30,223 nt of DNA from a virus, in the IMG/VR virus record IMGVR_UViG_3300030430_001837, positions 1-30,223 of that record; one strand, given 5' to 3'. The translations under genes and the position numbers were made by a program. Positions 5,156 to 8,859 of this stretch are shown here, piece by piece (the first letter of the stretch is position 1; each line of letters begins with the position of its first letter). The notes below the pieces were generated by a model. It was given only the letters and a program-made list of their open reading frames with translations. It did not search any database and was not told where the DNA came from.

Positions 5156-5183
5156 TTGACATTATGTTAACCTATGTTAATAT
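5156..5183 (+). promoter_or_regulatory. Early rightward promoter with operator
   Basis: A consensus -35 TTGACA (5156-5161) is followed after 16 bases by TAATAT (5178-5183). A perfect palindrome TTAAC-CTAT-GTTAA (5167-5180) lies in the spacer and overlaps the -10. It is well placed to drive the small-gene operon starting at 5220, and the palindrome would block polymerase if a repressor bound it. Confidence 0.65.
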
Positions 5184-5219: not shown

Positions 5220-5369
5220 ATGAAAAAAGTTATGATAAGTGAATCAGAAGCGATAGCATTACAAGATATAATAGAACATTGGTTTATTCATGTTAATGAT
5301 GAAAACTGGGTTTTTGACAATGGAAAAAGATACCAACCTTTTATAGATAATATTGTTAAAAAACTATAA
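5220..5369 (+). CDS. Hypothetical protein, first early gene
   Basis: 49 residues, MKKVMISESEAIALQDIIEH then WFIHVNDENWVFDNGKRYQP and so on. AAGGAG precedes the ATG. It is acidic in the middle with several aromatic residues, probably a small folded domain. I do not recognise it. It is the first gene after the early promoter and is separated from the next gene by a hairpin and a hammerhead-like element. Confidence 0.65.
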   Translation: MKKVMISESEAIALQDIIEHWFIHVNDENWVFDNGKRYQPFIDNIVKKL

Positions 5370-5373
5370 ATAT

Positions 5374-5392
5374 AGGGGGATTCATTCCCCCT
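5374..5392 (+). terminator. GC-rich hairpin after the first early gene
   Basis: A perfect 7-bp stem AGGGGGA/TCCCCCT with a 5-base loop, five bases after the stop at 5369. The downstream sequence TATTTCTAA has few consecutive U, so it may be a weak terminator or a 3'-end stabiliser for RNA cut by the ribozyme at 5403. Confidence 0.5.
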
Positions 5393-5394
5393 TA

Positions 5395-5452
5395 TTTCTA
5401 ATATTAGGATATTATCCTAACTGATGATTGCAATTAAGCATGAAATTAGAAA
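5395..5452 (+). ncRNA. Type III hammerhead ribozyme
   Basis: The RNA folds as a complete hammerhead. Stem III is UUUCUAAU (5395-5402) paired with AUUAGAAA (5445-5452), 8 perfect pairs. The cleavage residue is A5403 (site AUA, of the allowed NUH form). Stem I is UUAGGAU (5404-5410) with AUCCUAA (5414-5420), loop AUU. The core CUGAUGA is 5421-5427. Stem II (5428-5441) has three Watson-Crick pairs (U-A, G-C, C-G) after a U-U pair at its base. The GAA of the second core strand is 5442-5444. It ends 6 bases before the AAGGAG of the next gene. Cleavage is predicted between 5403 and 5404. The weak point is the short stem II. Confidence 0.8.
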
Positions 5453-5473
5453 CAAAAAAGGAGACTATATAAA

Positions 5474-5743
5474 ATGAAAAAAATAATATTAACTCATTTT
5501 GACAATGAATCACATGGATATGTAAAAATTTCTAAATATGATTTGCAAGGTCTAGAAATAGATGAAAATCAATTTTCTAATTTTTCATATTATAACAATG
5601 AAAATGCATGTCTTTACTTGGAAGAAGATTGTGATGCAACAAAATTATTAAACTTATTAAAAAATAAAGGTTATGAAGTAATCATTAATAATCAATTTGT
5701 TGAAGATACTTATTTTGATAATAACTCTTTTAGGAGGTTATAA
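5474..5743 (+). CDS. Hypothetical protein flanked by two hammerheads
   Basis: 89 residues, MKKIILTHFDNESHGYVKIS onward, with CLYLEEDCDATKLLNLLKNKGYEV (about 46-69) resembling a small alpha/beta domain. AAAGGAG lies 11-16 bases upstream of the ATG. I do not recognise the family. The gene lies alone between the elements at 5395-5452 and 5746-5805. If both cut, it would be released on a 396-base RNA (5404-5799), so its expression is probably controlled by RNA processing. Confidence 0.75.
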   Translation: MKKIILTHFDNESHGYVKISKYDLQGLEIDENQFSNFSYYNNENACLYLEEDCDATKLLNLLKNKGYEVIINNQFVEDTYFDNNSFRRL

Positions 5744-5745
5744 GA

Positions 5746-5805
5746 GTCTAACTGATGAGCTTTTAATAAGCGAAACTACTCAATTTATATTGGGTAGTCT
5801 TAGAC
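5746..5805 (+). ncRNA. Type I hammerhead ribozyme
   Basis: Again a complete hammerhead, with the open end at stem I. Stem I is GUCUAA (5746-5751) with UUAGAC (5800-5805). The core CUGAUGA is 5752-5758. Stem II is GCUU (5759-5762) with AAGC (5768-5771). The GAA is 5772-5774. Stem III starts with A5775-U5798 and continues C5776-G5797 to U5784-A5789, ten pairs in all with one G-U, closed by a UUAU loop. Cleavage is predicted after C5799, in the optimal GUC triplet. It begins 2 bases after the stop of the 89-residue gene, and the AAAAAGGAG of the next gene follows at 5812-5820. Confidence 0.88.
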
Positions 5806-5830
5806 ACTTACAAAAAGGAGATTATATAAA

Positions 5831-6181
5831 ATGAATAAAAACATTTATAAATATGATGAAATCTATTCACATTTTGAAGATTTTATCAAAGAACAGTTAG
5901 AATATAATAAAGACTATTTAAATGAAACTGATTTTTCAGATATACATCATGATGCATTTAATCAAGATTATTATATTATAGGTAGATATCAGGCAACAAA
6001 ATGGCTATCTGATGAAGTTTTTAATATAATAGAGATAATCAAAGAATATGAAAATGACAATTTTGGTGAAGTTTATACTGATTTTTCAGAACCTGAGAAT
6101 GTTGTAAATATGTATACTTATATAATGGGTCACCATGTTATGCATGATTATTTTAAAAACAATAAATTAGAGGTTGCATAA
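5831..6181 (+). CDS. Hypothetical acidic protein
   Basis: 116 residues, very rich in Tyr, Asp, Glu and Asn (MNKNIYKYDEIYSHFEDFIK at the start; HHDAFNQDYYIIGRYQATKW in the middle; MGHHVMHDYF near the end). Probably helical and soluble. AAAAAGGAG lies before the ATG, directly downstream of the type I hammerhead, so after cleavage the leader would be only 31 bases. The stop overlaps the next ATG. Function unknown. Confidence 0.75.
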   Translation: MNKNIYKYDEIYSHFEDFIKEQLEYNKDYLNETDFSDIHHDAFNQDYYIIGRYQATKWLSDEVFNIIEIIKEYENDNFGEVYTDFSEPENVVNMYTYIMGHHVMHDYFKNNKLEVA

Positions 6182-6543: not shown

Positions 6544-6570
6544 TTGACATTAACAATAAGTTAATATAAT
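6544..6570 (+). promoter_or_regulatory. Second early promoter with operator
   Basis: TTGACA (6544-6549) and a perfect TATAAT (6565-6570), spaced by 15 bases; TAATAT at 6562-6567 is an alternative -10. TTAAC-AATAA-GTTAA (6550-6564) fills the spacer exactly. The short 15-base spacing may make it weak or activator-dependent. It would drive genes from 6624. Confidence 0.6.
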
Positions 6571-6575
6571 ATTTA

Positions 6576-8562: not shown

Positions 8563-8859
8563 ATGCCAGTATTAATTACATATAGAATCATTGATGGTTT
8601 TCATCAATATAATGACTATCACATACATCAAGATAATGAAGATATGATTGATGATGAAGAACTAATCAGAGAGGTGTTTCCTGATAGCATACCTGATGAG
8701 AATGGTGGAGATCAAGATGATTACAGGAAGATAGAAGTTGAAACTATAAAACACATAAGTGTGAAACAAGCAGAATTTTTACGAGATTGTCATATTGCTT
8801 TTCCTTTTGGTGGTAACGAATGGTTGCAACATCTAGCAACAAAAAAAGGGCATAAATGA
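8563..8859 (+). CDS. Hypothetical acidic protein
   Basis: 98 residues, MPVLITYRIIDGFHQYNDYH onward, rich in His and Asp (DNEDMIDDEELIREVFPDS), then a helix and FPFGGNEWLQHLATKKGHK. Possibly a small alpha/beta regulator or DNA-mimic-like acidic protein, but there is no specific evidence. It is translationally coupled to the next gene by ATGATGA. Confidence 0.65.
   Translation: MPVLITYRIIDGFHQYNDYHIHQDNEDMIDDEELIREVFPDSIPDENGGDQDDYRKIEVETIKHISVKQAEFLRDCHIAFPFGGNEWLQHLATKKGHK

Follow-up and report, generated by a model that had tools for sequence, protein, structure and literature searches.

The element at positions 5746-5805 of a 30,223-base virus record (the whole stretch analysed, hereafter the window) fits the type I hammerhead ribozyme by every sequence and structure criterion applied. 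It is a real and very probably active hammerhead. We consider it likely that, as a functional ribozyme, it cuts a polycistronic early transcript between the genes encoding 89 and 116 amino acids. The features of the region are listed in Table 1.

Table 1. Features of the hammerhead region in the window, with the evidence or remarks for each.
Feature	Positions	Strand	Evidence or remarks
Promoter-like TTGACA-16-TAATAT before gene group	5156-5183	+	Weak; such matches are no commoner than in shuffles
49-aa ORF	5220-5369	+	Upstream of the GC hairpin and type III element
GC hairpin, terminator-like	5374-5392	+	AGGGGG-AUUCAUU-CCCCCU; directly 5' of the type III element
Type III hammerhead	5395-5452	+	Direct reading, fold, descriptor, homologue in locus L003
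Type III, stem III			UUUCUAAU/AUUAGAAA
Type III, H17	5403		A5403, triplet AUA; predicted cut 5403^5404
Type III, stem I	5404-5420
Type III, core	5421-5427
Type III, stem II			UGC/GCA with a U.U mismatch at 10.1/11.1
Type III, GAA	5442-5444
Predicted excised single-gene RNA, 396 nt	5404-5799	+	Carries the 89-aa ORF; deduced from the two predicted cleavage sites
89-aa ORF	5474-5743	+	Homologues in loci L006, L011 and L012; no known function
Extended stem I of type I element	5741-5810	+	MFE and centroid folds
Type I hammerhead, whole minimal element	5746-5805	+	Direct reading, MFE fold, descriptor against shuffles
Type I, stem I	5746-5751/5800-5805	+	GUCUAA/UUAGAC; direct reading
Type I, catalytic core (C3-A9)	5752-5758	+	CUGAUGA; direct reading
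Type I, stem II	5759-5771	+	GCUU 5759-5762/AAGC 5768-5771, pentaloop UUAAU; reading and fold
Type I, core G12 A13 A14	5772-5774	+	GAA; direct reading
Type I, stem III	5775-5798	+	Ten pairs, 5775-5784/5789-5798, tetraloop UUAU; fold
Type I, H17	5799	+	C5799, triplet GUC 5797-5799; predicted cleavage 5799^5800; direct reading
Downstream leader, 31 nt	5800-5830	+	Shine-Dalgarno AAGGAG 5815-5820
116-aa ORF	5831-6181	+	phrog_10208 (unknown function)

Structure of the type I and type III elements

A sequence-only reading of this DNA had proposed the type I hammerhead, and its coordinates and every conserved element were confirmed base by base, including the cleavage triplet GUC, the gap of two bases between the UAA that ends the 89-aa ORF and stem I, and the 31-nt leader between the predicted cut and the start of the 116-aa ORF. 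By reading and fold, the core CUGANGA ... GAA lies in a three-helix junction, in which stem I is open and loops close stems II and III. The A15.1-U16.1 pair (A5775-U5798) closes stem III, and H17 (C5799) is not G. The MFE structure was exactly the type I hammerhead (-20 kcal/mol, z -3.19; equalled by one of 200 shuffles), and the centroid fold was the same. Stem I is extended in both the MFE and centroid folds: the A5745.A5806 mismatch is followed by pairing of UAAG (5741-5744) with CUUA (5807-5810), which places the stop codon UAA inside the helix. These outer four pairs are not general among phage type I elements.

The type III element that the same reading had noted in the adjacent gap proved to be real. 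It contains the core, the A15.1-U16.1 pair, an open stem III, and closed stems I and II. Its MFE structure was a competing fold, better by 0.2 kcal/mol, and its centroid was the hammerhead. Natural hammerheads are known to contain the U.U mismatch at 10.1/11.1, and no other mismatch at that place is tolerated as well (PMC3088659). In the homologous element of locus L003, a G-C pair of stem II has become A-U, with both sides changed, and the GC hairpin preceding the element is kept. Within window 5368-5398, this hairpin can extend into the 5' strand of type III stem III, so that the two structures may compete.

The 49-, 89-, and 116-aa ORFs gave no significant family with Pfam and PADLOC. Promoter-like sites with TTGACATTA...GTTAA repeats were observed at 5156-5183 and 6544-6572, before small-gene groups, and are possibly under operator control. 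A similar sequence lies upstream of the 89-aa homologue in locus L006.

A descriptor built from the core, all three stems, the A15.1-U16.1 pair, and an H17 other than G gave two matches in the window, both scoring 18. In 300 dinucleotide shuffles searched on both strands, there were four matches in total, the best scoring 16 and none reaching 18, which agrees with the earlier claim that two such neighbouring elements are unlikely to arise by chance. A looser descriptor (variant cores, shorter stems) added only a score-12 match at 6144 in the window. At gathering scores, Rfam gave no match in the window or in the Pelagibacter phages Eistla EXVC025P and EXVC032P Baldr. The window element reached 43 bits with RF03152 (E 2.3e-5; gathering score 56.3), and RF00008 reached 24 bits on the window, under its gathering score; RF00163 was absent from the Rfam matches listed for the window. 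The Rfam cut-offs miss many such elements, and phage annotation consequently under-reports hammerheads.

Covariation and position in related phages

Two short-pattern scans of viral contigs returned 54 and 60 DNA stretches. The first pattern, which left the tested stem bases free, matched 54 distinct elements; pairing at the free positions was found in 54/54 for inner stem I, 53/54 for outer stem I, 53/54 for stem II, and 54/54 for stem III. When distinct strands were swapped between elements, full pairing fell to 9% (stem II) and 14% (stem III). With stem I left wholly free, the second pattern matched 57 elements, 53 of which had six pairs and four had five; the swap control for this stem is weaker, CUAA/UUAG being common to many stems. 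Compensatory changes in the relatives keep the type I stem pairing. Loop II is mostly a U-rich pentaloop (UUAAU, UCAAU), UUAAU being the commonest among 126 distinct phage type I elements, and A.A flanks the 6-bp stem I in 103 of these, as it does in the window element. Such conservation of loop II and of the A.A flank could reflect a possible tertiary contact between loop II and stem I.

The fetched loci contained 188 distinct hammerheads (161 type I and 27 type III), and in the relatives both the fold and the location, after a stop codon and ahead of the next Shine-Dalgarno sequence, are conserved. An upstream ORF end was found nearby for 152 of the 161 type I elements. The stop fell at -4 to +13 of stem I in 134 of these 152, against 6% at random sites, and overlapped the ribozyme in 103; downstream starts with a Shine-Dalgarno sequence were 15-36 nt away in 127/139 cases, all these counts resting on mechanical ORF calls in many related loci, so that the events are not independent. 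Arrays of 5-10 elements, all on one strand, were also present, with ten in L106, eight in L111, six in L134, and five each in L093, L107, and L135. Such rows of hammerheads at gene junctions suggest the cutting of long messages into single-gene messages. An array order with type III first was rejected as a general feature; most loci show it, these represent few lineages, and L106 and L111 break it.

Six type III elements (window, L003, L153, L157, L160, and L172) follow an ORF stop by 25-31 nt, and each of them has a strong hairpin just 5' of the ribozyme. The feature holds only for these six: a stronger local fold before type III elements in general was discarded, the mean z being -0.51 for 24 type III elements vs. 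-0.49 for type I.

The large terminase of the window phage shares 79% identity with its counterpart in Pelagibacter phage EXVC032P Baldr, and a SAR11-type host is therefore likely. No hammerhead was found in Baldr, the nearest isolate by terminase, and the annotated phages searched included no direct nucleotide relative of the region. The core UUGAUAA, a double change of C3-G8 to U3-A8, was observed in five elements (L012:3620, L181:6355 and 7391, L183 at 335 on the minus strand, and L184:5199). It was not retained as a new variant, since this change had been reported earlier and is active (PMC3088659). At another junction, L011:3954, the core of a type I-like element is UUGAUGA, with U3.G8.

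Proposed message separation and alternative roles

For the proposed message separation, one transcript is assumed to run from upstream of 5220 to at least 6181, where the type III element would cut at 5403^5404 and the type I element at 5799^5800. After type III cleavage the ribozyme would stay on the downstream RNA, so the upstream product would need another end structure; its end would lie just after the GC hairpin. The type I ribozyme would remain attached to its upstream product after cleavage, and a single base would separate its stem III from the 3' end. The middle product would thus be a 396-nt one-gene RNA ending in the stem III hairpin and a 2',3'-cyclic phosphate, and the third a downstream RNA with a 5'-OH, the 31-nt leader, and an open Shine-Dalgarno sequence. 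From what is generally known of bacterial RNA decay, such products would be expected to resist 3' exonucleases and 5'-monophosphate-dependent decay, and through such ends each gene's message could have its own stability and level. In this model, the ribozyme belongs to a mosaic of small accessory genes, and gene exchange takes place at its edges.

Gating of self-cleavage by translation is a tentative and rather unlikely addition to this model. In most of these phage elements the upstream stop codon falls in or against stem I, and a ribosome at that codon would mask the stem together with some of the core. Cutting would then occur only when no ribosome terminates there; the separation of each message would then be tied to translation of the preceding gene.

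It is doubtful that the hammerheads serve mainly as linkers of gene cassettes, that is, as 50-60 bp units providing homology for recombination, with real but secondary cutting. Locus L003 matches the window at 5220-5461 (91.8%) and resumes from 5845, with a different gene between, so that the mosaic breaks at the hammerhead edges. The closest matches to the hammerhead stretch 5737-5806 are copies located at other junctions, in L012, L100, L107, L128, and L142, and L107 itself carries near-identical copies at several junctions. Because the nucleotide matches break at these edges, cassette exchange is a serious second role, compatible with cutting. As a main role, however, it does not account for the compensated stem changes without sequence identity, which homology-based joining neither needs nor favours, and the conservation of the core and loop II exceeds what a linker needs.

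The message-separating role must also be weighed against turnover of the element in close relatives. The 89-aa homologue of L006 is itself followed by a type I hammerhead, with entirely different stems I and III (GCAAAU/AUUUGC), and this supports the proposed role. In L011 the copy is decayed (core CCGAAGA) and retains stems I and III, in L012 none follows the 89-aa homologue and one with a U3-A8 core occurs at another junction, and L002, L004, and L005 have no hammerhead before the 116-aa gene. Copies being absent or decayed, the element is not essential. The same losses would fit a non-functional relic or neutral repeat that spreads at gene ends and then decays, but this is improbable, as many different phages keep intact cores and compensated stems, and the double changes described above preserve the core pair in a form known to be active.

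Excision of the RNA 5404-5799 by the hammerhead pair and its closure to a circle by a host or phage ligase, as in retrozymes, is very improbable. The two predicted cleavage sites flanking one gene would indeed leave a 5'-OH and a 2',3'-cyclic phosphate on the same RNA; however, the RNA that would be excised holds an ordinary gene preceded by its own Shine-Dalgarno sequence, single elements commonly form long arrays on one strand, and no ligase was identified in a search that was not systematic. Finally, the view that an AT-rich intergenic hairpin resembles a hammerhead merely by chance carries practically no weight: RF03152 and RF00008 both scored under their gathering scores, but the descriptor score was unmatched in the shuffles, and the relatives conserve fold and place.

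Cultured pelagiphages and known hammerhead systems

Hammerheads were also found in two cultured pelagiphages. In Eistla (MT375521), two type I cores were located, at 8793 and 10047, with predicted cuts at 8839^8840 and 10098^10099, and HTVC142P (OR420754) contains a type I element (core 669) and a type III element at 39623-39676 (core 39648). They are absent from the record annotation, and no report of them was found in searchable papers, most subscription papers lying outside the search. As in the window, the type I elements of both phages have a stop codon in or beside stem I, stem lengths of 6, 4, and 10-11, and a next start soon after. They differ in belonging to the Pelagivirus group of Autographiviridae and in their stem I (GUAACA/UGUUAC). 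The presence of hammerheads in these cultured phages makes cleavage, message separation, and the effect on expression directly measurable.

Other structured RNAs were observed in these genomes. In relatives of Eistla, a type III hammerhead lies between the arms UUUGUUUGU and ACAAACAAAC; Eistla itself (L146, 8160-8297) carries a distinct RNA at the same site, with a strong fold (z -5.8) and no match in Rfam, which is possibly another kind of self-cleaving RNA. In HTVC142P (L147), a conserved, apparently structured non-coding stretch (ACCGCAACAGCCGCACGGCGAGCCGGUC...) at about 39430-39620 directly precedes the type III element, and it also occurs before type III elements in the pelagivirus-like genomes L149, L155, L158, and L166. 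Rfam gave no match for the L147 stretch. RNase P RNA, suggestive by eye before the pelagivirus type III elements, was rejected, as Rfam gave no such match.

Among Rfam families, RF00163 (Hammerhead_1) and RF00008 (Hammerhead_3) have the same catalytic core and three-helix junction as the window element. RF03152 (RAGATH-1-hammerhead) is alike in being type I and in its long stem III, core, and AGGAG upstream. It differs in its 5' hairpin presenting AGGAG, which is broken in the window (two non-standard pairs flagged), where a coding sequence ends in AGGAGG. Membership of the window element in RF03152 was dropped on account of the score and this hairpin.

Hammerheads around single phage genes, and the idea of message processing, have been known since 2011, when Perreault et al. 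described tandem hammerheads flanking single genes in prophages and proposed processing of the message; several of those hammerheads were shown to cleave in vitro, and one set did so in E. coli (PMC3088659). Among the open questions named in PMC6155905 is the role of hammerheads in phages and prokaryotes. No earlier report of the hammerheads described here was found in searchable papers. Like the 2011 prophages, the window has several hammerhead types situated between phage genes, on either side of single small genes. Unlike those prophages, it comes, with its relatives, from a marine, probably SAR11-type phage, its ribozyme is placed at the stop codon, and its type III element is preceded by a stable hairpin.
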